Positions 2,905-62,424 of a stretch of DNA of 64,000 nucleotides are shown here, in pieces. Origin of the DNA: Diphasiastrum complanatum (taxonomy: Eukaryota; Streptophyta; Lycopodiopsida; Lycopodiales; Lycopodiaceae); the NCBI GenBank assembly GCA_029204225.1, contig CM055092.1, positions 69,596,252-69,660,251 on the forward strand. The letters run 5' to 3'. The notes under the pieces were generated by a model. It searched no databases. It was not told where the DNA came from and saw only the letters and a program-made list of their open reading frames with translations. The translations under genes and the position numbers were made by a program. Within the stretch, counting starts at the first letter, position 1. Every line of letters starts with the position of its first letter.

Positions 2905-2925
2905 CGTCAACGACGAGCACTCTTT

Positions 2926-2995
<70 letters not shown>

Positions 2996-17473: not shown

Positions 17474-17500
17474 GATCTTGATCTAGGCCTTCCAAGATCC

Positions 17501-32406: not shown

Positions 32407-32544
32407 GTGTTGAGTTGCTCAAGAATCGAGATGCTAGAAATCGATATCCTATTGTTCTCCGACCTTGGCCATAAAGGCTGCTTCATCTTCCTCTTGCTGC
32501 TGTATCGAAAAACTAGTTGAGGCAGGATTCGCTTGTTGTTGAAA

Positions 32545-32733
32545 CTACTTCTTCTTCTCATTGTTGAATTTCAAAGTTATGTAGTTCTTGATCTCATGTG
32601 CAGTTCTCTTGCAGTATTTGTAGAATAGTTTCTGCTTTGGTTGGGAGGATGGAGAGTTCGAATTTGACCCTGCACTAGAATTCGAGCCAGAGCCAAAATT
32701 CGAGCTAGAGTTAAAATTCGATCCTAACTGCAT
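32545..32733 (-). pseudogene. copia-3 gag zinc-knuckle end
   Basis: Ser/Asn-rich linker followed by a degenerate knuckle: Y-K-Y-C...H....Y, where the first and last Cys have both become Tyr. Confidence 0.7.
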
Positions 32734-32813
32734 ATTGCTCTTCTTTTTGGATTTGAACTTTTAATTTTTGGAATATAAAACTTGAGGATGTTAGAAATCA
32801 ATGATAAACTTCA

Positions 32814-33734: not shown

Positions 33735-34147
33735 ATCGGTGTCCTACGAAGTCCGTGGAGGGTAAGCCACCTTACAAAGCTTTTAATGGAAAGAAACCTA
33801 ATGTTTCTCATTTACGAGTATTTGGTTGTGATGCTTACGCTCATGTACCTGATGAAAAACGAAAGAAGCGGGATGCAAAACCTGGTAAGTGTATTTTCCT
33901 TGGATATGATGAAAGAGCCAAGGCATGTAGGATGTATGACACAGATGCACAAAAGATCGTGATTTTCAGAGATGCTACTTTTGATGAGATGGGTCAAAAT
34001 GACCAAATAAAATTGACAATTGATCCCTTTGATGATAAAGCTAAAGTGCAAGTGAAGGAAGAAGTTGGTGTCAATATGGAAGAGCCAATGGAAAAAGACA
34101 AGGTCAATAATGAGATTCCTAGGAGAGTGCCTAAGTGGTATGAGTGA
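33647..34147 (+). pseudogene. copia-4 integrase C-half
   Basis: 166-codon frame continuing the integrase (MEMARAMLKSKGLPNTFWTEA, KP.VSHLRVFGCDAYAHVP, KCIFLGY). It then ends abruptly at about 34147, joined to the end of RT. Confidence 0.9.
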
Positions 34148-41006: not shown

Positions 41007-41674
41007 ATGGCCTGTGCTGCTGCTGCATCTGCGGCAACTCTCGCAGGAGGAGCGTCGCCAACGCTCACATGCTGCAGAGCAGAGGCTAATCTTTGTACTG
41101 CTTCCAGCCTCACTCGTGTTGCTCTCAGCTCTCGCAGCAATGTCATGCCATTTGTGTCACAGTTCCGAGGGCATGCCGTTTGCAGCTCCCTGACTGCTGC
41201 ATCCACTGATATTTTGCCCGTGCAATCGTTTATTGGAAATGGCAGGCAAAGAAGCGTCAGCAATTTGGTTGTGATTTGTAAGGCGGGGTCAGATCAAACG
41301 ATCGTTATCGGCCTCGCGGCTGATTCTGGCTGTGGTAAAAGTACTTTCATGAGGCGTCTGACGAGTGTCTTCGGAGGTGCTGCTGTGCCTCCACAAGGAG
41401 GCAATCCGGATTCCAATACGTTAATAAGCGATACCACAACTGTGATATGTTTGGACGATTATCATTCTCTGGATCGTACAGGCAGGAAAGAGAAGGGAGT
41501 GACGGCTCTAGACCCCCGTGCAAACAATTTTGATCTTATGTACGAGCAAGTGAAGGCGTTGAAGCAAGGGAAGTCTGTACAGAAGCCAATCTATAACCAT
41601 GTCACTGGCCTGCTTGACCCGCCAGAGCTTATTGCGCCTCCCAAGATTCTCGTTATCGAGGGCCTTCATCCAAT
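41007..41674 (+). CDS. PRK: Phosphoribulokinase, chloroplast, exon 1
   Basis: PRK phosphorylates ribulose-5-phosphate with ATP to give ribulose-1,5-bisphosphate, the CO2 acceptor of the Calvin cycle, in the chloroplast stroma. Exon 1 gives 222 codons plus two bases. Residues 1-~92 are Ser/Ala/Arg-rich with few acids, a transit peptide longer than the ~50 residues usual in seed plants. The ATP-binding P-loop is GLAADSGCGKST (102-113). The redox-active cysteine pair is Cys109 in the P-loop and Cys148 in VICLDDYHSLD, which also holds the presumed catalytic Asp. These are the thioredoxin-regulated pair known in plant PRK. IYNHVTGLLDPPE and ILVIEGLHPM follow. The donor is AT|GTAAGT. The frame is clean and looks functional. 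Confidence 0.97.
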
Positions 41675-44600
41675 GTAAGTCGTCTCCTTTGATACTATGA
41701 ACGAATACTTGTTAACGCATGGCACCGAAAGAATCCTTGTTTACAAGAAACAGCTTTCAATTTATGTTTACTTTGGCTGAATTGATTGTTGCTTTCCACC
41801 GATTGAACTGCATGCGAGTTTTTACAATCACGAAACATAGGAATGATTATTTTGGTTGTTTTAGTCGACCATCACAAGTCATTTTGCGAATTGTGGACAA
41901 ATGATGTCGTCCGACACATACATTGCTCAACAGCAACGACGATGAATTTCGTGGAGGAGACAAATAAACCTTCATCATAGATAGTAGCATCAGTTATGTG
42001 GATGAATTATAAGATGCCTGAGTAAGGTCGTATGCATGGCGCCTTCCCTGACTGATGTGTACATGTTGTGTACGATAATTGAGTTCCATCTTTGTCACGA
42101 AGAAAGGTTTACGGTGTTGATGGTAAGTCGAATGAAAAGATATATTACCTAGACAATCATTCCCAAGTTCATTCTTCGCCATTCATATCTTTTGAATCGT
42201 AATTCTCCTTTTGTGTGTCCATCGTTCATTCACGCTTTCTCAGTGTCGAATATTTTGTGCTGGTTTTCTTGCTCCGCAAATGACAAGAGATTGTTAATCC
42301 AGTTCTACTGTATTTTCAAAGAGTCTTGTTACTTGTTTGGCTACATAAATTTGTTTTTACAGACTTACACCTTTTGATCTTTGTGTCCTGATTTTCGGAG
42401 CATGTTATATGTTCATCGTTGGAGAAATTGGAGTGATGCAGAATTGAGAACAGTCAATCGCTTTTCCCTTGTAAAGTATATAGTTTCTACATTCTCCCTA
42501 CTTTTTTTTTCATTCATTCAAGGAGGTAGACGCCCTCGAAATCCTTATCATAGTGGTTACGTATAGTGCGTGGCATCAGCCTTGGTGAGCTGGTCCCACC
42601 CGGAACTCCCTAGGTGGTTCTGCCCAGGAACCCCCTAGTTTTGAGCAGGTTTCAGATGGAACCAGCCTTAGTAGCATACTAGCAATTTCATTTTTTTGGA
42701 AACTTTCAGCAAGGAGCTGATTACGGACGTAAGTGATTCGTGATGACATATTGGCAAGCCAATCATCTTTGTAACCATTATGGTGGTGAGGTGTCTACCG
42801 TTCATCGGATAGCTATAAGGCATGCGGAGGAAGTTTAAATGGTATCCCGTTTCCATTTATACAAAGAAAAAAGGAAAAATTTGAAATTATTTTACTAGGT
42901 TCAGCATGAACAATTTGGAAAATGGCTTAGCAGTAGCCACTGCCATTTTATTAATGTTTACTTTGCGTTATAGTGAATCCCAAGGTCACAATTAAAGATG
43001 TATTAAAGGGTCGATTACATACTCTCGGAAGGCCCTAAACATCAGCAATCCATTTTTGTTCTTGGACGAGTCATGAGGAAAGCATTGCAACAAAACAAAG
43101 ATAGAGAATACTAGATCGATCTAATGTAGAGCAATACCTACGTGACAATCTCCATGAATAAATTGATTGAGTTAAATCATATCTAGGCTGAATCTGTGCT
43201 AAATATACCTTAAGCTACTCCTTAATCTAAGAACTAATCTCCAAACAACAATCAGCCAATCGGAACAAGGTCCTTGAGCTCTGTTTATAATGTGTGAGGG
43301 CCCACACCCCACACCAAGGTTAGGTGTTCACGTACGTACCTTTAGGACCAGATAATAGCTAGTAGCCCAAAGGCCCAAATCGTGTGGTCTAATGTCTAAT
43401 GCCATATATTAAGACGGGGCCCAAGGTCCAAGAAGTAATGAATGATATGTGTTAGGGCCCAATCGTGGGTCAAAATTAACTATGGAAGGCTCAATCAACT
43501 GTCAAGTATGGATTGAATTGCTACCTAGGATAGCATCAGCCTAACATAGATTAGATGTCTTGCTAGACCCTAGTGAGCACGCAGGACAAAAGGCTCAGGC
43601 ATTTTATTTTGTTGAGTTAGAAATTCAATTATTTCGAGCACTTTTTTAGGCATACCTACTTTAATGTTCCGGCTGGCCTGAAATCATAATTAAGCTTGAA
43701 AAGACTCTTTGTTGTAGAAACATTCTTTTTAATATTATAAAAAAATTCCAAGCAAATAAATGCTCCTACTAAAAGCAACGAAAACCCATATCAAGGTCCA
43801 AAAACATCTATGATTTTGAGATCAAAAGCAAGACATTTAGAATCTACATGCTAGAATTGGGGATACTAGTAACTAGAATGATCTACATGTCACATGAAAT
43901 TTGAAATGATAGACATGTCATGTGAAATTTGAAATGATTCATGTCACGTGAAATTTGAAATGATGAAACCTGAACTCCCTTGATGTGCAATTTTGATTAG
44001 CATATGCCTTAGCCTAGATCATGGCTTGTTTTACATTTTTTTTGCCAACTCAAGCAATTTCTTTAGTTGAGTTAGAAATTAAATAATATTGAGCACTTTT
44101 TGAGGCTTAAAACCAAAACTAATCTTAAAAAGTCTCTTTTTATTTTTGGACACCGCCCATGTGTGGACATGGTTTGAACTTGGGTGGTTAATCTCACACA
44201 AGAACCCTATACCACCATATGAAAAGACTTGTATTTGTAGAATTAGGCTTGGGAGGACTTTTTATAGTATGAACGTGCTTTTTACTAATATGAGAATTTT
44301 TATGGCAAATACTGCTTCTACTAAAAGCAACGAAAACTCATATGAAGGTTATGGGATGCCCATGATTTCAAGATCAAAAGCAACATAACGAAACATGAAC
44401 TCCCTTTATGTGCAATTTTGATTAGTATATGCCTTAGCCCAAGCTTGTTTCACTTTTTTGTTTGGCCAACTCAAGCATTTTCAAATAATATTGAGCACTT
44501 TTGAGTGATACCTACTTTAGTTGTAGTAGCTAGCCTAAGAATCAAATTGATCCCATTTGATTCTTTAAAGGATCATAATTCGTCAGCCAACAAATCACGA

Positions 44601-45526: not shown

Positions 45527-45611
45527 GTATGATGCAAGAGTGAGGGAGCTTCTGGACTTCAGCATCTACTTGGACATTAGTGATGCAGTAAAATTTGCTT
45601 GGAAAATTCAA
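45527..45611 (+). CDS. PRK: Phosphoribulokinase, exon 2
   Basis: 85 bases: the G that completes the split Met codon, then 28 codons reading YDARVRELLDF...KFAWKIQ, a block nearly invariant among plant PRKs. It is preceded by a pyrimidine-rich CTACTAAGCAG acceptor and followed by the donor GTATGT in phase 0. The next PRK residues (starting Arg-Asp in relatives) are not found in the remaining 18.4 kb, so the third exon lies beyond the window. Confidence 0.96.
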
Positions 45612-45694: not shown

Positions 45695-45755
45695 CCATAT
45701 TGCCCACTAAATTTAATATATTTTTTAAATTCTTTAAAAAAAAAAATATTAAAAA

Positions 45756-45964
45756 TGGTACCGCCCTGGTACCTCGGATTTTTGGGCGGCACCATAACCG
45801 CGGTACCACCATTATGGTACCGACGGTACCATAATGGCGGTACAACAGAGAACTATGATATATATATATATATATATCATAGGTCCCGCGGTACTGGGTA
45901 CCGCGGATCCCGGTACCGCGGGACCATACTGGTACCGCGGTACCATGATGGTACCGCGGTACCA
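45756..45964. repeat. Palindromic end module M1 (GGTACC-rich)
   Basis: About 11 GGTACC hexamers in ~210 bases. An outer half (45756-45857, ending CTATGATAT), a short TA core and an inner half (from about 45875, starting CATAGGTCCCGCGG) together form an imperfect palindrome. The outer half is the reverse complement of the outer half of the module at 52007-52241, which makes the pair the terminal inverted repeats (~110 bases) of element A. The inner half is the reverse complement of 62335-62424. Confidence 0.9.
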
Positions 45965-46248
45965 CAATATAATAATATATTTATTATTTAATATTTTTTT
46001 TAATTTTTTTTTACCTAAACCTACCCGCCCCCCTCGCATTTCCTCTGAAATTTTTTTGAGCCCTCTCCGCCCTGCCATCGCTGTTGGTTTTTCTTGCCTG
46101 CCTTTGATTCCTTGCGTCGCCCATCGCCCACGCAACGCCCTGCCTTGCATCTGATTTCCTTTGCCCTGCACTCGCCCATTTTCAGCGTCTCTCCAACAGT
46201 GAACCCTGCTGTTTTTTTTCCAGCAATCCATCCCTCATTTCATCTGCA

Positions 46249-49200
46249 ATGGTGCAATCCGACCTTTCCGGTCTGTGGGACGAGGTAGACATTGTCAGGC
46301 GGGTTGCCGACAAGGCCAACAAGACCGGTCAGAAGATCGTGCGCTGCCGATACTGTCTCGTCGAGTTTGCTGCATCCCTCACTCGCCTTAAAGGCCATCT
46401 GCTCGGTGCACGCGCCAAAAATGGTGCCACCTTGAATGCTGCCCCTTGTGGCAGCATGACCGTCCCCGACAGGCAGCGACTACTGGACACCTACGGGCCG
46501 CGGCTCGTGGCAGGGGAGAACACCATTTCGGAGGGCATTCTCCGATTTTGCACCGCTCCTTATGTGACTAACCCAGAGTTGCTGCCTGCTTGGCTGGCAC
46601 GCACGAGGAGAGGGAGTGCATCCTCCTCTGGTCCCTTTGCCCCTCAGACAGCTCTGCCTCATGCACCCCCATCTGCTCAGATTCCGGTGGATCCCGTCCC
46701 ATCGCGTCCGACAGTTGCCACTGCGGTTCCACCACCACCCACTGTTGCTCGCACTCCACCAGTCTACGACTTTCTCATGGACTCTCCGCCACCCGAGCAG
46801 GCCCAGGATGGTACTGGGCGGGCCTTCGAGGATGTGGAAGAGATCCCTTCTTCCTTCCCTTCCCATCCGGATGACCTCCTCAGCCAGCAGTTTTCGTACC
46901 CCATGCCAGATGTTGCCCCTCCACCAGTGCACCCCACCTATGCTGCTGCACCCATCCCTGCCAGTGCATCCCACTCTCCCCATTCCACGTCTACAGCCGA
47001 TGCATCCACCAGCGCCCAGCCTGTCGCGTCATCGTCCATTCCCGTCACGGTTGGTGCACCGTGCTGGAGGTCCACCACCCGTCGTCCACCAGGGAGAGCC
47101 CTCGTGCAGCAGACCATTCGCGGCGCGCATCAGCCGCACATGGACAGAGAGGCCACACAGGCCGTGGCCAGTCTGGTTTACGAGCTGAACCTGCCCTTTG
47201 CCATCACCGACTCTGAGCCCTTCAGAAGGGCCTTCCGCCTTGCACAGTCTGTCAGCCCTAGCTGGAGAGTCCCTAGTTCAGAGGTTGTCCGCACACACAT
47301 GCTGAGGGATAGGGTCGAGTCCTTGTCTAGAGAGATGGAGCCTCTGCGTCGGCACTGGGCCACTTACGGTTGCAGCATCATGTCCGATGGCTGGACTGAT
47401 GTCAGGAGGAGGCCGATCCTCAACATACTCGTCTCCAGCTGCATGGGCACACAGTTTTTGAGGGCAGTGGATTGCAGCAGGGGGGGGAGAGTCATATCTG
47501 CAGAGTTCATGTTTGATGTCATCAGGTCTTCCATCCTAGCCATAGGCCCACAGCATGTCGTCACGGTGGTGACGGACAATGCCACGAACTGCATTCAGAT
47601 GGGTGTACTGCTAGAGGCCGAGTTCCCTCATATTGTTCATACCCCCTGTGCAGCCCACGACATAGACCTTTTGATGGGGGACATTGGAGCACTTCCCTGG
47701 GTTAGAGCCATCTTCCGGGAGGCCCTCTTCCTGGTGACTTTTGTCACCAGAAAGAGGCGTGTTCTTGCCATGTTTCGGGTGTTTAGCCATCTGGACCTCC
47801 GTAAGCCAGCCCCCACGCGCTTTGCATTCGACTTGGTGGTCATCGACCGTTTGATCAGGTGCAGGGCCCAGCTTCTACAGATGGTTGCCAGTGATCTTTG
47901 GGGTGCCAGTACATTTCCGCACACTGAGGATGGGGAGCACTTTTCTTCCACGGTGAGGGGAGACCAGTTCTGGAGGGATGCACAGACATTGTCAGGACTG
48001 CTTCGACCACTCTACATTGTGCTCCGCATGGCTGACAGCGAGGGGTCGACACTTGGACTGGTGTATGAGCTCATGGACCGGATTGGACAGTTCCTGCAGC
48101 TGCCCATCTTGCAGCCAGAGAGGTAAGCGGTACAGTGTTGCAATTGACCTTTATCTTTTCAGTACTTGCTAGTTTGTTTTTCTGTCAATGTTAAGCTTTT
48201 TCGTAATGCCCTAAACCACATGCCCCTCACCTGCAGGATGACAGAGCTGAAGTTCATATGGGAGACGCGATGGAACTACTTCCACAGGAGTATCCACAGC
48301 GTTGCACACATGCTGCATCACCTCTTCCTCTCTCCGACACAGATCGCAGACAGGGAGGTCGAGGCCGATTGGCTTCAGTACATTCACAGGGTGGGTCCAC
48401 ACATAGGTTTGGATCCTATCAGGCTCATGGAGGAGCTCGCTGCATTTCGTTTCGGCATGGGCACATTCGGCCACCCGGCTGCCCAGGATCCAGAGAGGAG
48501 GCAGCTACCCATTACCTGGTGGACCATGTTCGGTAGCACATACCCATCTATACAGCGTCTTGCACTGCGTGTCCTTTCTCAGGTATGCATCTCATTTTAT
48601 CCTCCATTTTTTGTGTTTCGTTGAAGTTTCACCTTTGCCACAATGTGCTGAAGTATTTCAATGCACGCACCACAGAACTGTGCTGCCTCTGTGTGTGAGC
48701 GTAATTGGAGCACATGGGCACTGATTCACACGAGGAGAAGAAACCGGTTGTCAGTGAGTCAGTTGGAGCGGTTGGTGTTCTGTAGCACCAACGCACGTCT
48801 CGCCAGGAGGCTTCCGACCATTACGAGCGCATTGCAGGTGATAAGCTAATCTTTCATAGCATGTTGGTTGACTCCTGGTATGTTGATTTCATTTCTTGAA
48901 AAAGTTGTCTCTCTGACATGCAAATTTTAAACCTTGCAGACGAAGATATCTGATTTGGAGCGCCAGGTTGACTTGCCTACGGACAGCACCCATCCCATGC
49001 CTGCAGATGACCTGGGCACACAGTTGATGGCAGAGAGAGAGAGGGAGCTTGCCGAGATGAGAGAGAGAGAGCTTGGGCTTGAGCACAGAGAGCCCCCATT
49101 GTATGAGGCAGATGAGCCAGTGTCAGAGGATGAGCATGATGAGGATGAGCCCATTCGGGTTGTGTTTGCCAGACCAGAGAGGGATGAGGCAGATTATACA

Positions 49201-50568
49201 GGTGCAGGGCACACGCCACGGGCAGGGGTCACAGGTGCATCACGTGGCAGAGGTGGGACACATGGCACAGGTTATACCGGCAGACAGGCAGGGCACACAG
49301 GGGGGGGCAGTGGCATACCTACCTATGTCGACATGATGGAGGAGGCTCTTGATAGAGGGCAGAGTGGTTTAGATGCTGGTCCCGCAGATGTTTGGATGCG
49401 TGCAGCACAGAGTCATGGCCGTTATTACGACAGCACACCAGAGGAGGCACCTGATGACTTTCATTGCACAGATTGGGAGGCCATGCAGGGTCTACAGGGT
49501 GCACATGATGAGGCACGGGATGAGGCTTGGGTTGATTCAGGGGTTGGTGCACAGGATGATTCAGAGGTCGGTGCACAGGATGATTTAGAGGCTGGTGCAC
49601 AGGATGAGTCCCAGAGCCCAGAGCATTTGTATTCGGATGCCCAGCTGGCCGACTTGGTTGCCACATTGGATTCAGAGGCCTTGCAGATGCCGAGTGTCAG
49701 GGCGCCCCCATCATCTCTTGCCAGCATGCCACACACAGAGTCCCAGCCAGAGCAGCCGCATGAGGTGCCTACAGTTCCTCCAGCTCCTCAGAGGGTGTAT
49801 GTGCGTCGCACAGCTCCTCCAGTGCCACCGATGCCATTTAGGCCTGCATCCCCTCCATCGCCGTCCACTTCTGCAGCACCAGGTCTCCATGGCAGGCCAC
49901 CATCTGTGCCCAGGTTTTCTCTTGCAGCGCCCACATCCACAGTGTCTCCTCCAGTGGCAGCATCCACGTCACATCCTCCTCCTTTGGCAGCACCCAGGAT
50001 GTACCAGTACCGGCCACCACAGCGCCCCTTTCAGTACATATCGCCACTGTACTCGCCTCCTGCACAGCCAGTTCCTCCACCTGCAGCAGCCCCACGGGCA
50101 CACACTCCACGAGCTCATCCTCCTCGCTCAGTTGCACAGGGAGTTCCCTCTTTTGCTTCCCTATCCCAGCCGGCCTCAGCTTGGGCCCAGCCTAGCCAGC
50201 CAGGTGATTTGCATGGGGGTGACGAGGCATTGACAGCTCCTCTTGTCCGCAAGAGACCAGGCAGGCCCAAGGGTGCACCGAACAAGAAAGGCAAGGCACA
50301 GAAACTGCCAGGGAGGAGAGGACGACCACGCAGGGCTCCAGGTACAGGTAGAGGTGCAGTATCACAGCCAGTTGGAGCAGGTGTTGTTGGTTTGGCCTGC
50401 TTGGGGGCTGATGCGGAGGCTGATTGGGAGGATGAGGATGACGAGTCTTCCCCCTCGGATACACAGCCCATGCCAGTTCCAGACAGGCAGAGATATCGGC
50501 TGCGAGAGTCAGCTCGGGGCCCTGAGTTGTCTCCAGAGCATTCGTCTGAGTCAGAGCCAGAGCATTGA
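46249..50568 (+). CDS. Element A hAT-like transposase (BED, DUF659, AT-hooks)
   Basis: Inferred exons 46249-48122, 48237-48582, 48676-48837 and 48940-50568, all with GT-AG borders and preserved phase; ~1336 residues. A BED-type zinc finger has Cys33, Cys36 and His50. A Pro-rich linker (~120-290) follows. The DUF659/RNase-H-like core includes SDGWTD (Asp380), VTDNATNC (Asp443), HTPCAAHDIDL (~464-474) and KPAPTRFA. Exon 3 holds the hAT dimerisation motif CERNWS..ALIHTR (Glu748). This much predicts DNA binding and a cut-and-paste transposase. Exon 4 adds ~540 residues unusual for hAT: Arg-Glu repeats, acidic and Gly-rich parts, a long Pro-rich tail, and two AT-hooks (RPGRPKG, RRGRPRR; ~1230-1260). 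The splice model is inferred. Domesticated function is possible but unproven. Confidence 0.85.
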
Positions 50569-51091
50569 TTGTGGCTCTATTGTTTTAGTTTCAGTAGTTT
50601 GTCTCTAGCAGTCGGTCTACCATTGTACTCAGATGATTTTTCACATTATATACAGTGTTTGGCCTACATTATTTGCTGCACATTGTGCGTATGTCGCTCT
50701 GTACATGTGATGCTTTATTTTATGTTGAAGAATTCTATGTGCGTGTGTGAATCCTATTTTCATTTAATTTCGTTTGAAGTGAATGCTAGCTTCACATAGA
50801 TGCACCTACATCATGAGCACAGCAATCACCCCTACACCCCAAACGACATTGAATAAACACATGTAATACATCTGCATTTAAAAAAATTACAAACATTGCA
50901 TCTTACATGACCAGGCTCGCGTTGCACAAAAAACAACTATGTATATATTCAACCGTTGTATCAGGATAACATCACATATACTGTCATTTTTTTAAGCAGC
51001 CATCTAGTTATTTGCTGCACCATAAACTGCCGAAAACTACATAGCAACAGTCCGCCACATACGGGTGGACCTCATCTATTCTAAACATCCC
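50569..51091. other. Element A convergent 3' region
   Basis: 523 bases between the stop codons of the two convergent genes. The same spacing (523 bases) separates them in copy C. It would hold both 3' UTRs and terminators. No coding. Confidence 0.6.
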
Positions 51092-51457
51092 TCACTGATC
51101 CTCCACCGACTCCTCGCCCTCGTCTGGTGCATTGTTTTGTCGCTCTTGCTCTGCCTCCCGGTTAGCCCGAGCTGCCTCCTGGTTAGCCCGACGTCTGGCC
51201 GCCCTTTCCCTGACCATGATGAGCTGCCGTCGTGTGAAATTCATTCCGATCTGCTCATCCAGATCCAGCTCGACAGCGGGGACAGGATCCACAGCGGGGG
51301 CGGGTGGCTCCGGTTCCGGATTTCTCTGTCGAGTCTGTCGCAGCATCTCTCGGATATCTGCCTCTTGCTTCCGATGCCTCTCGTTGTGCCTTCGGATATC
51401 TTCCTCAAGCTTTCTCCTGGCTTCGCCCTCGGGCTTCGGTGGTATTCGCTCAGCCAT
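51092..51457 (-). CDS. Element A ORF2, charged coiled-coil-like protein
   Basis: 121 residues from the ATG at 51457, which is the start shared by all three copies (an upstream in-frame ATG at 51499 exists only in A). Residues ~8-50 are an amphipathic Arg/Glu/Lys-rich helix (GEARRKLEEDIRRHNERHRK...), then a Pro/Ala linker, then VELDLDEQIGMNFTRRQLIMVRERAARRRANQEAARANREAEQERQN, another long charged helix with an acidic tail. No known domain recognised. It is not SANT/Myb-like. The position opposite the transposase gene and conservation in A, B and C suggest a real second protein of the element, perhaps a DNA-binding or transposase partner (inference). Confidence 0.65.
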   Translation of the reverse strand: MAERIPPKPEGEARRKLEEDIRRHNERHRKQEADIREMLRQTRQRNPEPEPPAPAVDPVPAVELDLDEQIGMNFTRRQLIMVRERAARRRANQEAARANREAEQERQNNAPDEGEESVEDQ

Positions 51458-51659
51458 CTCGATCGACCTTCTCCTCACAGCACCCTGATCCTTGAACACC
51501 CTCTCACAGCACCCTGGCTCTCAAACAGCCTCTCACAGCCTGTCACCGGCTCTCGCTTGCTCTCTCACTGTCTATCACTAGCCCTCTCACAGCCTCTGAA
51601 AATGCCGACCACAATGGCATTGTGAGTGCCTATTTATCCCCACAGCCTGATCGGCCATG

Positions 51660-51880
51660 TGGATCCCCATCATCCCTCCATGTGCCTCCGTACCCGCCCC
51701 CATGTGATGCTCCCCCCTGTGTTGGTCTCCCATTGGGCCCATGGTCTGCTCACCCACAATGCCCATGTGCCTCTGTACTTGCCCCCATGTGATGCTACCC
51801 CCCTGTGTTGGTCTCCCATTGGCCCCTCGGTCTGCTCACTCGCAGTGCCCATGTGCCATTGCAACGGTCCCCTGCATCAT
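51660..51880. repeat. Element A subterminal tandem array, ~85-bp units
   Basis: CCATGTGCC(T/A)-containing units start at about 51678, 51763 and 51849, a period of 85-86 bases. Each holds GCCCCCATGTGATGCT, GTTGGTCTCCCATTGG and GGTCTGCTCAC words. It is the inverted counterpart of the array at 52342-52760. Confidence 0.85.
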
Positions 51881-52006
51881 GTACTGTACCCTCTTTTTTT
51901 ACACCCAGAACCCCCTCTTTTTACTTTTTTTTGTCCTTTTTTGGTAGTTAATATGCAAAAAAAAATTACTAAAAATATATTAAAAAATAAAAAAAAATAT
52001 TAAAAA

Positions 52007-52108
52007 TGGTACCGCCCTGGTACCGCGGATCCCAGGGCGGTACCGTACCGGCGGTACCACTGATATGGTACCGGCGGTACCATACCAGCGGTACCAGAGG
52101 CCACTATG

Positions 52109-52140
<32 letters not shown>

Positions 52141-52241
52141 CATAGTGGCACGTGGTACCGCCATTATGGTACTGCGGTACCATAATGGTGGTACCGCGGT
52201 TATGGTGCCGCCCTCAAACCAGCGGTACCAGGGCGGCACCA
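52007..52241. repeat. Palindromic module M2 shared by elements A and B
   Basis: 235-base imperfect palindrome with ~11 GGTACC hexamers and a TA core at about 52109-52140. The left half begins TGGTACCGCCCTGG; the right half ends in the near-complement. The tail of element A lies on one side and the tail of element B on the other, so one module serves as the end of both. Confidence 0.9.
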
Positions 52242-52341
52242 CAAAAATAATATTTTTTATTATTTTGAAAAAAAAAAAAACCCTTTTAACAGGCTAAAAC
52301 TAGGTAAAAACTAAGATGTTACTGTACAGGGGGACTGTACT

Positions 52342-52765
52342 GGGGGCACTGTGGGAGAGCAGACCCAATCGGAGTGCGGCATGTGGGGGAGCAATACATG
52401 GGGCAGGTACAGTAGCACATGGGCACTGTGGAGGAGCAGACCATGGACCCAATCGGAGTGCAGCATGTGGGGGAGCAATACATCCGGACAGGTACACCGT
52501 CACATGGGCACTGTGGAGGAGCAGACCATGGACCCAATCGCAGTGCAGCATGTGGGGGATCAGCACATGGGGCAGGTACAATAGCACATGGGCACTGTGG
52601 AGGAGCAGACCATGGACCCAATCGGAGTGCAGCATGTGGGGGAGCAATACATCCGGACAGGTACACCGTAACATGGGCACTGTGGAGGAGCAGACCATGG
52701 ACCCAATCGCAGTGCAGCATGTGGGGGATCAGCACAAGGGGCAGGTACAGTAGCACATGGGATCA
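52342..52765. repeat. Element B subterminal tandem array, ~85-bp units
   Basis: GGGCACTGTGG-type starts at about 52342, 52421, 52506, 52590 and 52675, with a partial copy at 52759. Units alternate between an AATACATCCGGACAGG variant and a CACATGGGGCAGG variant, giving a ~170-base higher-order period. Confidence 0.9.
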
Positions 52766-52799
52766 TCAACAAAAGCAAATTGGGAAACAGGCTGTGGGG

Positions 52800-53029
52800 T
52801 TAAATAGGCACTCACGAGACAGTGAGAGAGCCAGTGAGAGGGGGTGAGAGGCATTGTGAGAAGCTGTGAGGGAGAGCCAGTGGGAGGCTGTGAGAGAGAG
52901 GCATTGTGAGAGGTTGTGTGACAGACCGAGTGAGAGGCTGTGAGAGGGGGGCTGTGAGAGAGCCAGTGAGAGCCATTGAGAGGCTGTGAGAGGCTGTGAG
53001 GGTCATTTCGAGCAACAGGGTGTCGTGAG
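52800..53029. repeat. GTGAGAG-rich leader of ORF2, element B
   Basis: Irregular repeats of GCCAGTGAGAG and GGCTGTGAGAG precede ORF2. The same kind of sequence precedes ORF2 in A (51500-51620, complement) and in C (55536-55635). This would be its promoter/5' UTR. Confidence 0.65.
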
Positions 53030-53374
53030 ATGGCGGAGGGCGAAGCCAGGAGGAAGCTCGAGGAAGATGTCCGAAGGCACAATGAAAGGCATCGGAAGCA
53101 AGAGGCAGACATTGCAGAGATGCTGCGAGAGACTCGGTAGAGACACCCAGAGCTGCAGATCCCCGCCCCCGCTGTGGCCCCCGCCCTCGTTGTCGAGCTG
53201 GATTTGGATGAGCAGATCGGAATGAACTTCACACGACGGTAGCTCATCATGGTCAGGGAAAGGGCTGCCCGCCGTCGGGCTGACCAGGAGGCAGCTCGGG
53301 CTAACCGGGAGGCAGAGCGAGAGCGACATAACAATGCTCCTGATGAGGGCGAGGAGTCAGTGGAGGATCCATAG
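53030..53374 (+). pseudogene. Element B ORF2 (two or more internal stops)
   Basis: Aligns throughout with ORF2 of A (start MAEGEARRKLEED). In-frame TAG codons at 53138-53140 and 53240-53242 replace CAG. Lacks six residues near the N-terminus relative to A. Nonfunctional as it stands. Confidence 0.85.
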
Positions 53375-53873
53375 GAATGTTTAGCATAGATGGGGTCTAG
53401 CCATATGTGGCTGACTGTTGTTATGTAATGTTCATCAGTAGATGAGGCAGTATTTAGTGTCTAGCATGGTGTAAAGAACAGCCCCAGCCGTATGCGGCGG
53501 GAATACGTGTTGTAATTTTGATACATCTGATGAATTAATGTACGGTGTGTTTTTTGTGCAATGTGTGCCTTGTGTATTGCAATCTGATGTATGTGATTAT
53601 GAAATGCTATCAGGGGGGTTGTATTTCTGTGTTCTGCATATGCTCTCAAACTCTGTAGTGAAAACTAATTGAAAACACGCACACACCATTTGAAGTAAAA
53701 CTGCAAGTAGAACATCACAATTACAAATTAACAAATACACATTGTGCAGTGAATAGAATACGTCCAAAACTAAATATAATATGAAAAATGGTCTGAATAC
53801 AGTGTTCGACCATCTGGCCGCCAAACATGGAACATGATATCAAACTGCTAAAAATAAAATGACGGAGCTACAA
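53375..53873. other. Element B convergent 3' region
   Basis: 499 bases between ORF2 and the transposase exon, diverged from its counterparts. No coding. Confidence 0.5.
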
Positions 53874-55496
53874 TCAATGCTCTGCCTCAAACTCAGATGA
53901 ATGCTCCGGAGACAACTCAGGGCCCCGAGCTGACTCTCGCAACTGATATCTATGTCTGTCTGGTACTGGCATGGGCTGTGTATCCGAGGGGGAAGACTTG
54001 TCATCCTCATCCTCCCAATCTGCCTCCGCATCAGCCCCCAAGCAGGCTAAACCAACAACACCTGCTGCAGCTGGCTGTAATACTGCACATCTACCAGCAA
54101 CTGGAGCCCTGCGAGGTCGTCCTCTCTTCCCTGGCAGTTTCTGTGCCCTGCCTTTCTTGTTCGGTGCACCCTTGGGCCTTCCTGGCCTCTTGCGGACGAG
54201 GGGAGCCGTCAATGCCTCATCACCCCCATGCAGATCACCTGGCTGACTAGGCTGGGCCCAAGCTGCGGCCGGCTGGGATAGAGTAGCTAAAGATGGGTGT
54301 CCCTGTGCAGCTGATAGTGGAGGATAGGTCCGAGGAGTGTGTGCCCGTGGGCCTGCTGCTGGTGGAGGAACTAGATGTGGAGGGGCCGTCCCTGCAGGAG
54401 GCAAGTACAGCGGCGATAAGTACTGAAGGGGGCGTTGTGGTGGACGGTACTGGTACATCCTGGGTGCTGCCAAAGGAGGAGGATGTGCTGTGGGTGCTGC
54501 CAAAGGAGGAGCCGGTGCCGTGGGTGCTGCCAATGGAGGAGGATGTGCTGTGGGTGATGCCACATGAGGAGCGTCTGTAGATGTGGGTGCTGTAAGAGAA
54601 GATCTGGGCACAGATGGTGGCCTGCCATGGAGACCTGCTGCTGCAAAAGTGGATGGCGATGAAGGGGCTACAGGTCTCAACGGTATCGGTGGCACTGGAG
54701 GTGCTGTGCGGCGCACATACACCCTCTGAGGAACTGGAGGAACTGCAGGCACCTCGTGTAGCTGCTCTGGCTGAGACTCTGTGTAGGGCATGCTGGCTAG
54801 AGAGGATGGGGGCGCCCTGACGCTTGGCATCTGCTGGGCCTCTGAATCCAAGTCTGCAATCAAGTCGTCCACCTGGGCATCCGAATACAAATGCTCTGGG
54901 CTCTGGGACTCATCATGAGCACCATCCTCTGGAACATCCCGTGCCTCATCCTGTGCACCATGTGGACCCTACATGGCCTCCCAATCGGTACAATCAAAGT
55001 CATTGGGTGACTCCTCTGGTGTGCTGTCATAGAAATGCCGATGGCTCTGTGATGCATGCATCCAAGCAGCTGCGGAAGGTAAACCCAAATCACTCTGCCC
55101 CCTATCAAGAGCCTCCTCCATCGTATCAACATAAGAAGGTATGCCACTGGCCCGGTATAATCTGTGGCATGTGTCCCACCTCTACCACGTGATGCACCTG
55201 TGACCCCTGCTCTAGGCGTGTGCCCAACACCTGTATCATATGCCTCATCCCGCTCTGATCTGGCGAACACAACCCGAATGGGCTCATCCTCATCCTGATC
55301 ATCCTCTGACACTGGATCATCTGCGTCGTACAATGGAGGCTCTCTGTGCTCAAGCCCAAGCTCTCTCTCTCTCTCTCATCTCGGCAAGCTCCCTCTCTCT
55401 CTCTGCCATCAACTGTGTGCCCAGGTCATCTGCAGGCATGGGATGGGTGCTGTCCGTAGGCAAGTCAACCTGGCGCTCCAAATTAGATATCTTCGT
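53874..55496 (-). pseudogene. Element B transposase exon 4 relic
   Basis: Starts at the same intron 3/exon 4 acceptor as in A (55496) and ends at the same stop. The frame at 55333-54860 shifts, and the true frame resumes at 54890-53874, with the Pro-rich tail expanded by extra PPLAAPTA repeats and both AT-hook motifs kept. Exons 1-3 are absent. Confidence 0.85.
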
Positions 55497-55529
55497 CTGC
55501 AAGGTTTAAATTGGCATGTCAGGGAAACA

Positions 55530-55537
55530 ACTCTAAG
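55530..55537. other. B/C fusion junction
   Basis: On the left, B matches A's intron 3 up to about 55532 (complement of GTTGT...CTGACATGC). On the right, C matches A's ORF2 leader from about 55535 (AGCGAGAGCC). Nothing lies between, so this is a clean deletion joint. Confidence 0.8.
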
Positions 55538-55635
55538 CGAGAGCCAGTGACAGGCTGTGAGAGGCTGTTTGAGAGCCAGGGTGTTGTGAGAGGGTGTTCA
55601 AGGACCAGGGTGCTGTGAGGAGAAGGTCGATCGAG

Positions 55636-56001
55636 ATGGCAGAGCGCATACAACCGAAGCCCGAGGGCGAAGCCAGGAGGAAGCTTGAGGAAGATATCCG
55701 AAGGCACAATGAGAGGCATCGGAAGCAAGAGGCCGATATCCGAGAGATGCTGTGACAAACTCGACAGAGAAATCCGGAACCGGAGCCACCCGCCCTCGCT
55801 GTGGGTCCTGTCCCCGCTGTCGAGTTGGATCTGGATGAGCAGATCGGAATGAATTTCACACGACGACAACTCATCATGGTTAGGGAAAGGGCGGCCAGAC
55901 GTCGGGCTAACCAGGAGGCAGCTCGGGCTAACCGGGAGGCAGAGCAAGAGCGACAAAACAATGCACCAGACGAGGGCGAGGAGTCGGTGGACGATCAGTG
56001 A
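55636..56001 (+). pseudogene. Element C ORF2 (one internal stop)
   Basis: 122 codons including the stop, collinear with A's ORF2. One in-frame TGA at 55753-55755 replaces CGA. The rest is open and very similar to A, with SVDDQ at the end. Confidence 0.9.
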
Positions 56002-56524
56002 GGGATGTTTAGAATAGATAAGGTCCAGCCGTATGTGGCGGACTGTTACTATGTAGTTTTCGGCAGTTTATGGTGCAGCAAATAACTAGATGGCTGCTTA
56101 AAAAAATGACAGTATACGTGATGTTATCCTGATACAACGGTTGAATATATACATAGTTGTTTTTTGTGCAACGCGAGCCTGGTCATGTAAGATGCAATGT
56201 CTGTAATTTTTTTAAATGCAGATGTATTACATGTGTTTATGAAATGTCGTTTGGGGTGTAGGGGTGATTGCTGTGCTCATGATGTAGGTGCATATATGTG
56301 AAGCTAGCATTCACTTCAAACGAAATTAAATGAAAACAGGATTCAGACACGCACATAGAATTCTTTGACATAAAATAAAGCATCACATGTACAAAGCGAC
56401 ATACGCACAATGTGCAGCAAATAATGTAGGCCAAACATTGTATATAATGTGAAAAATCATCTGAGTACAATGGTAGACCGTCTGCTAGAGACAAACTACT
56501 GAAACTAAAACAACAGAGCCACAA

Positions 56525-58124
56525 TCAATGCTCTGGCTCTGACTCAGACGAATGCTCTGGAGACAACTCAGGGCCCCGAGCTGACTCTCGCAGCCGATAT
56601 CTCTGCCTGTCTGGAACTGGCATGGGCTGTGTATCCGAGGGGGAAGACTCGTCATCCTCATCCTCCCAATTAGCCTCCGCATCAGCCCCCAAGCAGGCCA
56701 AACGAACAACACCTGCTCCAACTGGCTGTGATACTGCACCTCTACCTGTACCTGGAGCCCTGCGTGGTCGTCCTCTCCTCCCTGGCAGTTTCTGTGCCTT
56801 GCCTTTCTTGTTCGGTGCACCCTTGGGCCTACCTGGTCTTTTGCGGACAAGAGGAGCTGTCAATGCCTCGTCACCCCCATGCAAATCACCTGGCTGGCTA
56901 GGCTGGGCCCAAGCTGAGGCCGGCTGGGATAGGAAAGCAAAAGAGGGAATCCCATGTGCAGCTGAGCTAGGATGATGAGCTCATGGAGTGTGTGCCCGTG
57001 GGGCTGCTGCTAGTGGAGGGACTGGTTGTGAAGGAGGCAACTACAGCGGCGATATGTACTGAAAGGGGCGCTACGGTGGCCGGTACTGGTACATCCTGGG
57101 TGCTGCCAAAGGGGGAGCCAGTGGAGTGGGTGCTGCCAAAGGAGGAGGACATGGAGTGGGTGCTGCCACTGGAGGAGGAGCTGGAGGAGCCACTGTGGAT
57201 GTGGGCACTGCGAGAGAAAACCTGGGCACAGATGGTGGCCTGCCATGGAGACCTGGTGCTGAATGGCATCGGTGGCACTGGAGGGGCTGTGCGGCGCACA
57301 TATACCCTCTGAGGAGCTGGAGGAACTGTGGGCACCTCGTGCGGCTGCTCTGGCTGTGACTCTGTGCATGGCATGCTGGCAAGAGATGAAGGGGGTGCCC
57401 TGACACTCGGCATCTGCTGGGCCTTTGAATCAAATGTGGCAATCAGGTCGTCCAGCTGGGCATCTGAATACACATGCTCTGGGCTCTGGGCCTCATACTG
57501 TGCACCATCCACTGAATCATCCTGTGCACCAACCTCTGAATCATCCCGTGCCTCATCATGTGCACCCTGTAGACCCTGCATGGCCTCCCAATCTATGCAA
57601 TCAAAGTCATCTGGTGCCTCCTCTGGTGTGCCGTCGTAGTAACGGCCATGACTCTGTGCTGCACGCATCCAAACATCTGCGGGACCGGCATCTAAACCAC
57701 TCTGCCCTCTATCAAGAGCCTCCTCCATCATGTCGACATAGGTAGGTATGCCACTGCCGCCCCCTGTGTGCCCTGCCGGTCTGCCGGTATAACCTGTGCC
57801 ATGTGTCCCACCTCTGCCACGTGATGCACCTGTGACCCCTGCCCGTGGCGTGTGCCCTGCACCTGTATGGTCTACCTCATCTCTCTCTGAACTGGCAAAC
57901 ACAACCCGAATGGGCTCATCCTCATCATGCTCATCCTCTGACACTGGCTCGTCTGCCTCATACAATGGGGGCTCTCTGTGCTGAAGCCCAAGCTCTCTCT
58001 CTCTCATCTCGGCAAGCTCCCTCTCTCTCTCTGCCATCAACTGTGTGCCCAGGTCATTTGCAGGCATGGGATGGGTGCTGTCCGTAGGCAAGTCAACCTG
58101 GCGCTCCAAATCGGATATCTTCGT
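56525..58124 (-). pseudogene. Element C transposase exon 4
   Basis: Begins at the conserved acceptor at 58124. A ~40-base deletion in the Pro-rich part near 57265 (after PPMPF) shifts the frame; the original frame continues through PP.AAPRMYQYRPP and, from about 56884, the AT-hooks to the same stop. An N-terminal in-frame gap relative to A lies near 57565. Confidence 0.85.
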
Positions 58125-58300
58125 CTGCAAGGTTTAAAATTTGCATGTCAGAGAGACAACTTTATCAAGAAATGAAACCAACATACCAGGAGTCAACCAA
58201 CATGCTATAAAAGATTAGCTTATCACCTGCAATGCGCTCGTAATGGTCGGAAGCCTCCTGGCGAGACGTGCGTTGGTGCTACAGAACACCAACCGCTCCA

Positions 58301-59530
58301 ACTGACTGTAGCGCAGGCATCCCAAAGGGAGCCGGGAACCACGACTTAGCTTCCCAGCCTTCAACTCTTGCCATCCAAACCCACTTGACATACAAGCAGC
58401 CAACTCGCCAACAACGATCAGACTTAACCAACTTGAAGTTCCGAAAACCAACATTGAGATCCAACCTGGCGCCATGCCAGATCGGGGATCCCGATGTGGG
58501 TGACTTCCCTCCAAGCAAGCCGCCCGACATACATCAAACTTAACCAATTCGAAGCTTCGTTACAAACGAGTAACATCCATTCCAAGCAAGCAGTCTGACT
58601 TACATTAGACTTAACCAACTGAAAGCTTCGTCACGAGCGCTGGAAGCCAACCTGGCGCCACGCCAGACTGGACAGCCATAAACAGGTAACATCCACCCAA
58701 GCAAGCCATCCAACTCAGCCGACAGGTTAGAGCCCGTTCCCCAAGAGCTTAACCCATTCACGTTCATGCAAGGAACACTCAGAACCACAAGCCGCGACAG
58801 ATATGGAAACAACCAGTTCCTGGACCAAATGGTCCCGACAGCATACCGCCGGCTCCACGGACCGAATGGTCCCGACGGCATACCGCTGGCGTCCCGGGAT
58901 ATGACCCTCAGCTATGTGCCAAGTTAAAAATTTTGAAAGCGGCCTTACAACTGGCGCTTTTACCGAACAATGAAACCCAGAAGGTAATCAGAGTCAGTTT
59001 GAGGAAAATTCCACTTTATTGATAAATCTGAGAAGGTTACATTTCAAGTGTGTGACCGACCCTAGTCTCCGGGGCGCTAGCATGCCAAGGCGAGAGCCAT
59101 GACAACATTCCAGCAAGGGAGGCTGAGACTTGGTTGGAGCTCGCCCTGAGTCGCAACCCGCACTCCCCTATAGTATTGGTGTGATTCGGCACCCCCCCTC
59201 ATACCAAGCACTCTACCCAAGCTGGTAAGGCACGTTTTTCTCTCTCTAGGATTTTTTCTTTCTAGAAAGTCATTTTCTCTCTCTAGATTTTATTGATCCC
59301 CAGGCTTCCTTTAATCATGCCTAGATCGTGTGAGGTGATTGCACATCGATCTGAGCTCTCTGGACTCCGCTAGAACCGATCAAAGATTTTCCGCCATAGG
59401 AACTTGGCGCCGGCTGGATTCTGGTCACAGTGGCGCCGGGAGCAGCAGGGGCGCTGCTGGCGCCGGGGACATAGCTGGCGCCGATGGCGCCGGAAGTAAA
59501 GCTTGTAAAGGTAGCTTTACAACACTGACT
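58301..59530. mobile_element. Unclassified 1.2-kb insertion with 7-bp duplication
   Basis: Bases 58308-59523 are absent from the matching site in copy A. ACTGACT occurs once in A and flanks the insert here on both sides (58301-58307 and 59524-59530), a clear target-site duplication. The insert has no long terminal repeats or inverted termini visible and no recognised protein. It contains three diverged ~60-180-base repeats (58390-58660, CCAAGCAAGC and GACTTAACCAA words) and a GGCGCC-rich stretch near its right end. A TTGGCGCCGGCTGG word near 59404 resembles a retroelement primer site, so a TRIM/solo-type retroelement is possible. Confidence 0.85.
59404..59495. repeat. GGCGCC palindrome array inside the insertion
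   Basis: Five GGCGCC hexamers plus one near-copy in ~90 bases, spaced 10-25 bases apart. Confidence 0.75.
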
Positions 59531-59703
59531 CACTGACAACCGGTTTCTTCCCCTCGTGTGAATCAGTGCCCATGTGCTCCAATTACGCTCACACACGGAG
59601 GCAGCACAGTCCTGTGGTGCGTGCATTGAAATACTTCAGCACATTGTGGCAGAGGTGAAACTTCAACGAAACACAAAAATGGAGGATAAAATGAGATGCA
59701 TAC

Positions 59704-60049
59704 CTGAGAAAGGACACGCAGTGCAAGACGCTGTATAGATGGGTATGTGCTACCGAACATGGTCCACAAGGTAATGGGTAGCTGCCTCCTCTCTGGATCC
59801 TGGGCAGCTGGGTGGCCGAATGTGCCCATGCCGAAACGAAATGCAGCGAGCTCCTCCATGAGCCTAATAGGATCCAAACCTATATGTGGACCCACCCTGT
59901 GAATGTACTGAAGCCAATCGGCCTCGACCTCCCTGTCTGCGATCTGTGTCGGAGAGAGGAAGAGGGGATGCAGCATGTGTGCAACGCTGTGGATACTCCT
60001 GTGGAAGTAGTTCCACCGCGTCTCCCATATGAACTTCAGCTCTGTCATC
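59704..60049 (-). pseudogene. Element C transposase exon 2
   Basis: 346 bases with the same splice borders as in A, open, and differing by a few substitutions (for example Trp to Leu in the ITLWTMFG segment). Confidence 0.9.
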
Positions 60050-60163
60050 CTGCAGGTGAGGGGCATGTGGTTTAGGGCATTACGAAAAAGCTTAACATTG
60101 ACAGAAAAACAAACTAGCAAGTACTGAAAAGATAAAGGTCAATTGCAACACTGTACCGCTTAC

Positions 60164-62037
60164 CTCTCTGGCTGCAAGATGGGCAGCTGCAGGAACTGTC
60201 CAATCCGGTCCATGAGCTCATACACCAGTCCAAGTGTCAACCCCTCGCTGTCAGCCATGCGGAGCACAATGTAGAGTGGTCGAAGCAGTCCTGACAATGT
60301 CTGTGCATCCCTCCAGAACTGGTCTCCCCTCACCGTGGAAGAAAAGTGCTCCCCATCCTCAGTGTGCGGAAATGTACTGGCACCCCAAAGATCACTGGCA
60401 ACCATCTGTAGAAGCTGGGCCCTGCACCTGATCAAACGGTCGTTGACCACCAAGTCGAATGCAAAGCGCGTGGGGGCTGGCTTACGGAGGTCCAGATGGC
60501 TGAACACCCGGAACATGGCAAGAACACGCCTCTTTCTGGTGACAAAAATCACCAGGAAGAGGGCCTCCCGGACGATGGCTCTAACCCAGGGAAGTGCTCC
60601 AATGTCCCCCATCAGAAGGTCTATGCCGTGGGCTGCACAGGGGGTATGAACAATATGAGGGAACTCGGCCTCTAGCAGTACACCCATCTGAATGCAGTTC
60701 GTGGCATTGTCCGTCACCACCGTGACGACATGCTGTGGGCCTATGGCTAGGATGGAAGACCTGATGACATCAAACATGAACTCTGCAGATATGACTCTCC
60801 CCCCCCTGCTGCAATCCACTGCCCTCAAAAACTGTGTGCCCATGCAGCTGGAGACGAGTATGTTGAGGATCGGCCTCCTCCTGACATCAGTCCAGCCATC
60901 GGACATGATGCTGCAACCGTAAGTGGCCCAGTGCCGACGCAGAGGCTCCATCTCTCTAGACAAGGACTCAACCCTATCCCTCAGCATGTGTGTGCGAACA
61001 ACCTCTGAACTAGGGACTCTCTAGCTAGGGCTGACAGACTGTGCAAGGCGGAAGGCCCTTCTGAAGGGCTCAGAGTCGGTGATGGCAAAGGGCAGCTTCA
61101 GCTCGTAAATCAGACTGGCCATGGCCTGTGTGGCCTCTCTGTCCATGTGCAGCTGATGCGCGCCGCGAATGGTCTGCTACACGAGGGCTCTCCCTGGTGG
61201 GCAACGGGTGGTGGACCTCCAGCACGGTGCACCAACCGTGACGGGAATGGACGATGACGCGACAGGCTGGGCACTGGTGGATGCATCAGCTGTAGACGTG
61301 GAATGGGGAGAGTGGGATGCACTGGCAGGGATGGGTGCAGCTGCATAGGTGGGGTGCACTGGTGGAGGGGCAACATCTGGCATGGGGTACGAAAACTGCT
61401 GGCTGAGGAGGTCATCCGGATGGGAAGGGAAGGAAGAAGGGATCTCTTCCACATCCTCGAAGGCCCGCCCAGTACCATCCTGGGCCTGCTCGGGTGGCGG
61501 AGAGTCCATGAGAAAGTCGTAGACTGGTGGAGTGCGAGCAACAGTGGGTGGTGGTGGAACCGCAGTGGCAACTGTCGGACGCGATGGGACGGGATCCACC
61601 GGAATCTGAGCAGATGGGGGTGCATGAGGCAGAGCTGTCTGAGGGGCAAAGGGACCAGAGGAGGATGCACTCCCTCTCCTCGTGCGTGCCAGCCAAGCAG
61701 GCAGCAACTCTGGGTTAGTCACATAAGGAGCGGTGCAAAATCGGAGAATGCCCTCCGAAATGGTGTTCTCCCCTGCCACGAGCCGCGGCCCGTAGGTGTC
61801 CAGTAGTCGCTGCCTGTCGGGGACGGTCATGCTGCCACAAGGGGCAGCATTCAAGGTGGCACCATTTTTGGCGCGTGCACCGAGCAGATGGCCTTTAAGG
61901 CGAGTGAGGGATGCAGCAAACTCGACGAGACAGTATCGGCAGCGCACGATCTTCTGACCGGTCTTGTTGGCCTTGTCGGCAACCCGCCTGACAATGTCTA
62001 CCTCGTCCCATAGACCGGAAAGGTCGGATTGCACCAT
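60164..62037 (-). pseudogene. Element C transposase exon 1, two nonsense changes
   Basis: 1874 bases, the same length as in A, starting at the ATG ending at 62037. The BED finger, Pro-rich linker, SDGWTD, TDNATNC and HTPCAAHGIDL are all present. In-frame TAG codons at 61177-61179 (CAG in A) and 61021-61023 (TGG in A) kill it. Confidence 0.92.
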
Positions 62038-62334
62038 TGCGATGGAGAAAACTAAGGACAAAACGCTGGAAAAAAAACAGCAGGGTACACTGTGTGAGAG
62101 ACGCTGAAAATGGGCAAAGGCAGGTTCTTGCAAATCAGATGCAAGGCAGGGCGGTCTGTGGGCGAAGGGCGACGCAAATCAGATGCAAGGCAAGGAAGGC
62201 AGGGCAGCAAAATCAGTAGCGAAGGCAGGGCAACGATGGCTGGAAAAAATTGGGAGAGAAGAAGCGAGGGGGGCGGGTAGATTAGGTTTCAAAAAATTTC
62301 AAAAAATATTAAATATTAATTATATTAATATATT

Positions 62335-62420
62335 ATGGTACCGCGGTACCATCATGGTACCACGGTACCAGTACGGTCCCGCGGTACCGGGATCCGCGGT
62401 ACCCAGTACCGCGGGACCTA

Positions 62421-62424
<4 letters not shown>
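62335..62424. repeat. Palindromic module M3 (inner half only)
   Basis: Six GGTACC hexamers. The reverse complement matches the inner half of M1 (45875-45964) closely. The outer half expected beyond the TA core is missing. Confidence 0.88.

Follow-up and report, generated by a model that had tools for sequence, protein, structure and literature searches.

Element A and its limits

The window, a stretch of 64,000 nucleotides from the clubmoss Diphasiastrum complanatum (assembly GCA_029204225.1, contig CM055092.1, positions 69,596,252 to 69,660,251), contains a complete DNA transposon, element A, which has a transposase gene of four exons and a second, convergent open reading frame (ORF2), together with two decayed relatives, C and B, fused to each other beside it (Table 1). 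The original prediction, made from the letters of the sequence alone, had proposed a two-gene transposon of the hAT superfamily at this place, with the transposase and ORF2 in the same layout in A and C. Our analysis supports this interpretation and partly confirms the observation behind it: the two-gene layout holds in A, and C has a 1.2-kb insertion within exon 3 and an in-frame stop in ORF2. The span given for the element, 45756 to 52241, was too wide, since the true ends of A lie at 45878 and 52108, and the sequences on both sides (45738-45877 and 52109-52241) are neighbouring relatives plus a (TA)n tract, outside A.

Table 1. Features of element A and its relatives in the window
Feature	Position	Strand	Description
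Complete element A	45878..52108	+	6,231 bp; CATAG...CTATG ends, common to copies in differing flanks
Left subterminal block	45878..45997	+	6 GGTACC palindromes; candidate transposase binding sites
Transposase exon 1	46249..48122	+	DUF659 at amino acids 342-492
Transposase exon 2	48237..48582	+	First half of hAT dimerisation domain
Transposase exon 3	48676..48837	+	Second half of hAT dimerisation domain
Transposase exon 4	48940..50568	+	542-amino-acid tail; two AT-hook-like motifs (RPGRPK, RGRPRR)
ORF2	51092..51457	-	121 amino acids, single exon, charged (24 K+R, 28 D+E)
TATA-like block ATAAATAGGC	51628..51637	-	Starts 178 bp upstream of ORF2 Met; putative promoter
86-bp tandem array	51678..51857	+	2.1 copies; upstream of ORF2
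Right subterminal block	51878..52108	+	7 GGTACC palindromes
C/B fused decayed relative	52141..62422	-	10,282 bp; C left end, transposase, exon 4 and ORF2, then B-type exon 4, ORF2 and right end
TG...CA insertion	58307..59524		1,218 bp, in exon 3 of C; 5-bp duplication CTGAC; solo-LTR-like (long terminal repeat), as read from the sequence

The ends were located by comparing copies of the family in differing flanks. Of 30 loci taken around the transposase start (A of the window included), 28 pass from differing flanks to CATAGGTCCCGCGGTACTGG at one point; of 30 taken around ORF2, 28 close the common sequence with GGTACTATG, after which the flanks differ again. Of the loci outside these counts, L010 was rearranged, L027 was without the first bases, L041 stopped short and L065 had an assembly gap. 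The right end of A in the window reads CCACTATG. Two copies that were fetched whole, L069 and L070, match A over positions 1-6231 at 99.74% and 98.5%, respectively. The exact 25-base left end occurs 705 times in the 1.74-Gb host genome, with no control matches. The family is young, high-copy and recently spread.

The termini of A are short inverted repeats, perfect over the 5 bp of CATAG and followed by imperfect similarity, as judged by eye. Target-site duplications (TSDs) were checked in ten elements. Exact 8-bp duplications were found at both ends of L037 (GTCTAGGT) and L022 (CTTGGCCA), with the right end at the predicted place, and L031/L048 and L025/L058 have ATATGTAT and GATATATA in common, respectively. 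For L050, L051 and L059, the evidence is weaker: a degenerate 8-bp pattern (21 matches in all) located the left end where it had been predicted. In three of the ten, no TSD was found: the right end of L017 was not recovered, and the 8 bp differ between L026 and L063 and between L020 and L047, both pairs of which sit in microsatellite DNA. The TSD of A itself is uninformative, because its own flanks are (TA)n. Three tested features, namely the transposase domains described below, the 8-bp TSD and the short terminal inverted repeats, identify A as a member of the hAT superfamily.

The palindrome GGTACC occurs six times in the left 120 bp of A and seven times in the right 231 bp, with none in the 5,529-bp interior (positions 372-5900 of the element). 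By analogy with other hATs, such as Ac, whose transposase binds subterminal repeats, these arrays are likely candidates for the transposase binding sites. GGTACC-rich end fragments of related but different elements border A at 45738-45877 and 52109-52261, and the CATAG end with GGTACC arrays seems common to several families.

Transposase gene

The four transposase exons of A, joined at GT-AG junctions, form one frame of 1,336 amino acids, which a simple splice score ranked first among 14 open combinations. Residues 1-916 of the spliced product matched DUF659 (137.3 bits, cut-off 34.7) and Dimer_Tnp_hAT (35.2 bits, cut-off 21.4) in Pfam. When exon 2 was read alone, Dimer_Tnp_hAT scored 18.6 bits, below the cut-off, and its rise upon splicing exons 2 and 3 therefore supports the exon model. 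The remaining Pfam match, PF04508 (E 0.099), was below its cut-off. The motifs MSDGW and VTDNA are candidates for the DDE catalytic triad. The motifs RPGRPK and RGRPRR in exon 4, presumably AT-hooks, are both kept in A, B and C, with insertions and deletions elsewhere in the exon; Pfam gave no AT-hook match for exon 4.

Genome-wide, 69 of the 70 scored transposase exons (the best 70 of 19,864 candidates) were free of stops. Open transposase copies were also seen head to head, at L036 and C3:12729058, with left ends about 40 bp apart, and at C14:1012552 and C14:1015785, with left ends about 0.6 kb apart.

Occurrence of ORF2

ORF2 is separated from the convergent transposase gene of A by 523 bp, and its predicted product has a pI of 5.4. 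We placed its Met at 51457; the list of open reading frames starts it at an upstream GTG. A TATA-like block precedes the A-type ORF2 in all 30 right-end loci as GATAAATAGGC, and B and the ORF2 neighbours of both L035 and L047 have it as GTTAAATAGGC, so that it is present in four lineages in all; the pattern used did not find it for the ORF2 neighbour of L069. AATAAA signals lie at 50852 on the plus strand and 50714 on the minus strand, so the 3' ends of the two genes may overlap, a six-base signal being weak evidence.

All of the 150 scored ORF2 copies (the best 150 of 3,816 candidates) were open. Since these copies, like those of the transposase, were the best-scoring ones, both sets describe the youngest copies. 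Among the matches listed, 45 of the 70 scored transposase copies had a convergent downstream ORF2 by their coordinates, at an offset of 4845-4847 bp in 41 of the 45 and of 3333, 4049, 4834 and 4850 bp in one copy each. Because of this fixed offset, together with the 705 exact left ends without control matches, the two-gene layout of the family is not a matter of chance. Of the 25 unpaired transposase copies, eight were fetched at the expected place and seven of them have ORF2, as does L070; at L087, the left end of another element lies where ORF2 was expected. ORF2 is therefore found downstream in 53 of the 54 transposase copies checked (16 of the 70 lay outside the check), and the co-occurrence of the two genes, which the original prediction had left to a genome-wide search, was borne out for transposase-bearing copies.

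Viewed from ORF2, the 30 copies listed on C1, C2 and C3 to 60.6 Mb have an exact left end at full-length spacing in 17 cases, at another spacing in five and none in eight. In at least five of the 30 right-end loci (L039, L045, L051, L060 and L064), internal deletions have brought parts of the transposase, or the left end, next to exon 4 or ORF2.

Coding constraint on ORF2

ORF2 of A was compared with ten diverged copies from other subfamilies. Synonymous divergence (dS) was 0.29-0.45, and the ratio of nonsynonymous to synonymous divergence (omega) was 0.14-0.24. In neutral simulations of two pairs, none of 2,000 replicates was as low in either pair, with a mean simulated omega of 0.72-0.73. 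More than half of the changes fell on third codon positions in five of five pairs, the insertions and deletions between subfamilies comprised whole codons, and the B-type copies end at the same place. As a control, the five wrong frames were analysed in the same way: four had an omega of at least 0.74, and one antisense frame had 0.21-0.36 but contained one to three stop positions in each of the five pairs, its low omega being explained by wobble positions that coincide with those of the ORF2 frame. The ORF2 frame itself had no stops in the five pairs except the known one of C. On the values of omega, the neutral simulations and the wrong-frame stops, we rejected ORF2 as a chance frame. On these sequence comparisons, ORF2 is under protein-level constraint between subfamilies and is therefore a real second gene under selection, in agreement with the constraint between copies by which the original prediction had proposed to judge it.

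The earlier statement that ORF2 has no recognised domain also holds: no credible match was found in Pfam (E up to 1), NCBIfam or the sequences of PDB. A match to a Rev chain in PDB (E 0.08) and one in NCBIfam (E 0.023, below the cut-off) were rejected as chance effects of composition, and the bZIP-like look of one stretch, noted by eye, was dropped because Pfam gave nothing at E up to 1.

Association with (TA)n DNA

Of 28 left ends of the family, 22 adjoin at least 12 bp of pure TA repeat, as do 15 of the 28 right ends, compared with a baseline of 0.56% of bases in such runs over the first 45.6 kb of the window. These 28 ends are not fully independent, because L018 and L030 share a flank and would seem to be two haplotypes of a single insertion. 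Genome-wide, (AT)6 stands directly before 429 of the 705 exact left ends. The family is strongly associated with (TA)n DNA. Insertions in non-TA DNA have normal TSDs, which places the TA tract outside the element; the association may be due in part to a short TA target that grew longer once the element had inserted. In several loci, neighbouring relatives are separated by TA repeats alone, as if insertions stack side by side.

We tentatively suggest, as a possibility of limited weight, that this hAT lineage independently evolved safe-haven targeting of (TA)n microsatellites, in which the AT-hooks of the transposase, the ORF2 protein or both would act as the tether. Targeting of (TA)n has been described for Mutator-like elements (MULEs) and MULE-linked miniature inverted-repeat transposable elements: in MuTAnT, SaTar/AgS-MULE, Ac-mMITE and Micron, most insertions lie in TA microsatellites and clusters form by adjacent insertion (PMC4486113, PMC5907723, PMC8449440, PMC8227079, in the accessible parts of their text). 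In these sources, the first three are assigned to Mutator, and Micron less surely, whereas the present family belongs to hAT and has an 8-bp TSD. Features of Mutator elements of the MuTAnT type were not found, as the Pfam matches of the transposase above the cut-off are DUF659 and Dimer_Tnp_hAT and the TSD is of 8 bp, not 9-10. We recognised no (TA)n-targeting hAT in the accessible text of the open-licence literature in PMC, subscription papers and Repbase lying outside the search.

Role of ORF2

With moderate confidence, we regard A as a recently mobile, probably autonomous hAT of the DUF659 type, in which ORF2 would encode an accessory transposition protein. Both genes are presumably transcribed. 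The transposase would cut and paste the element by acting on the CATAG ends and the GGTACC-rich subterminal blocks, and may be guided to (TA)n DNA by its long exon 4, in which the two AT-hook-like motifs lie. The product of ORF2, a gene read from the right end towards the transposase gene, would be a small and highly charged protein, presumably of helical structure. It would have a part in transposition, the likeliest mode being that it binds either the element ends or the transposase.

Several observations weigh against this view. Motifs as short as the AT-hooks can arise by chance, and the accessory role of ORF2 rests on analogy, because ORF2 matches no family credibly. Open copies of transposase exon 1 accompany a broken ORF2 at L091 (a stop) and L092 (a stop and a frameshift). 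Over the whole family, moreover, no more than 22 of the first 100 listed left ends could be paired with an ORF2 among those listed; the other 78 or more may lack ORF2 or may have one that scored below the best 150. Lastly, ORF2 is broken in eight of 16 fetched B-type copies, and omega between close B-type copies reaches 0.6; both are as expected from decay after insertion.

An accessory transposition factor is nevertheless the role that we favour, and its main rival, which we consider rather unlikely, is an anti-silencing or host-interaction protein like VANC of the VANDAL MULEs, which would keep the element expressed and be dispensable for cutting and joining. VANC is much larger, and searches of Pfam, NCBIfam and PDB linked ORF2 to no family. 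The young age and high copy number of the family are in favour of such a protein, as are the tandem and GGTACC arrays in the non-coding parts near ORF2, which recall the targets described for VANC, often tandem repeats (PMC5735166). ORF2 as a repressor or copy-number regulator of transposition, forming one functional unit with the transposase, is less probable still. It would agree with the retention of ORF2 in the five deletion derivatives that have lost transposase sequence (L039, L045, L051, L060 and L064, of 30 right-end loci), but ORF2 lies at most about 1 kb from the right end, so a derivative that keeps that end may retain ORF2 incidentally; moreover, ORF2 was the query by which these loci were found, and none of them could have lacked it.

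The other two explanations deny ORF2 a role in the element. Gene capture by plant DNA transposons is a known process, and ORF2 could be a captured fragment of a host gene or a passenger (transduplication). We consider this very unlikely, as several subfamilies, at a dS of about 0.3-0.45 and an omega of 0.14-0.24, agree in the place, strand and stop of ORF2, its insertions and deletions between them comprise whole codons, and it has its own TATA-like block. The hardest to credit is that the end is constrained as non-coding DNA and the frame of ORF2 is spurious: ORF2 lies near GC-rich repeats and one antisense frame also has a low omega (0.21-0.36), but that frame is interrupted in every pair, the other four frames are at 0.74 or higher and all 150 scored copies of ORF2 (of 3,816 candidates) are open.

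Decayed relatives and the host locus

C has an A-type left end at 62422 and runs to 55535, where it is joined head to tail to a B-type exon 4 that leads to a B-type right end at 52141. Among 40 scored places, a query spanning the junction was matched on both sides solely in the window, and the C/B fusion is therefore most likely a local rearrangement of decayed relatives; on the same result we rejected a mobile C/B composite. Identical exon lengths had been claimed for A and C. In the two exons compared, the claim is correct for exon 1, which has 1,874 bp in each copy, whereas exon 4 measures 1,629 bp in A and 1,600 bp in C. Nor is B a remnant of the same kind as A, as had been supposed: its DNA identity to A or C is 74-80%, which marks it as a diverged subfamily. 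The ORF2 copies of both C and B are broken. B-type ORF2 was scored at 40 places including the window, the other 39 at 96-98% identity, and in at least 11 of the 40 (the window included) it has, among the matches listed, an exon-4 start in the same layout, at a distance of 2.3-2.5 kb in ten and 1.1 kb in one; the exon-4 starts were taken from 39 of 40 matches, the one left out matching the C side of the query.

The transposon cluster, at 46-62 kb, has a GC content of 0.51-0.58, compared with 0.32-0.44 in the part of the window before 46 kb. Upstream, part of a phosphoribulokinase gene lies at 41007-41678, its translation matching PDB 6kew (E 1.1e-73), and a coding stretch, DARVRELLDFSIYLDISDAVKFAWKIQ, at about 45528-45611, ending 266 bp before A, is what we take to be its next exon. 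No further phosphoribulokinase exon was recognised by eye or text pattern up to 64000. With exons upstream and none recognised downstream in the window, an intron of this photosynthesis gene is the probable site of the cluster. By eye, frames resembling Copia-type retrotransposons were seen at 4441-7873, 16964-18379 and 29568-34147, and a Gypsy-like one at 25799-27952.

Comparison with known systems

The elements of the hAT superfamily are usually described as carrying a transposase only, as stated in the accessible text of PMC4423477, and A agrees with those of the DUF659/Dimer_Tnp_hAT type in having both domains above the Pfam cut-offs, an 8-bp TSD and the CA start given in a table of that source. 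It differs in its second conserved gene, the 542-amino-acid tail of exon 4, the GGTACC arrays and the preference for (TA)n. The premise of the original prediction that a typical hAT has a transposase alone thus stands as a general description, with an exception, as a two-ORF hAT is known. This is Shanks (hATv) of Tisochrysis lutea, which is classified as hAT, measures about 6.8 kb and has two ORFs, neither with a recognised domain (PMC10138859). Compared by its description in that source, Shanks differs in that its host is a haptophyte alga, its ORFs are of 793 and 580 amino acids, the second being nearly five times larger than ORF2 of A, and its TSD is of 7 bp. No plant hAT with a conserved second gene was found in the same open-licence literature.

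A transposase with a second ORF is usual in PIF/Harbinger (PHIS) and CACTA elements (PMC4423477), and the second ORF of Harbinger is described as a Myb/SANT DNA-binding protein (PMC4482050). These elements have transposases of other superfamilies and other TSDs; ORF2 of A had no Myb/SANT match in Pfam at E up to 1, and the TSD is of 8 bp, not 3. The gene layout of MuDR is convergent. MuDR and the VANDAL MULEs likewise carry an extra gene beside the transposase (mudrB, PMC4486113; VANC, PMC5735166), but their transposase is of the Mutator type and their TSD is longer, and no sequence relation to A was found.

Elements of the hAT superfamily serve as standard models and tools and are commonly viewed as one-protein systems. 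If the (TA)n-tether reading is true, no targeting or accessory subunit would have been described for a plant hAT before ORF2, within the literature searched. The family is young and has many open copies of the two genes, one of them under selection, so that the purpose of a second gene is directly testable within hAT. As a (TA)n-associated family outside Mutator, it also makes the origin of such targeting comparable between two superfamilies, in a group of plants, the clubmosses, whose transposons have in our opinion been little studied.

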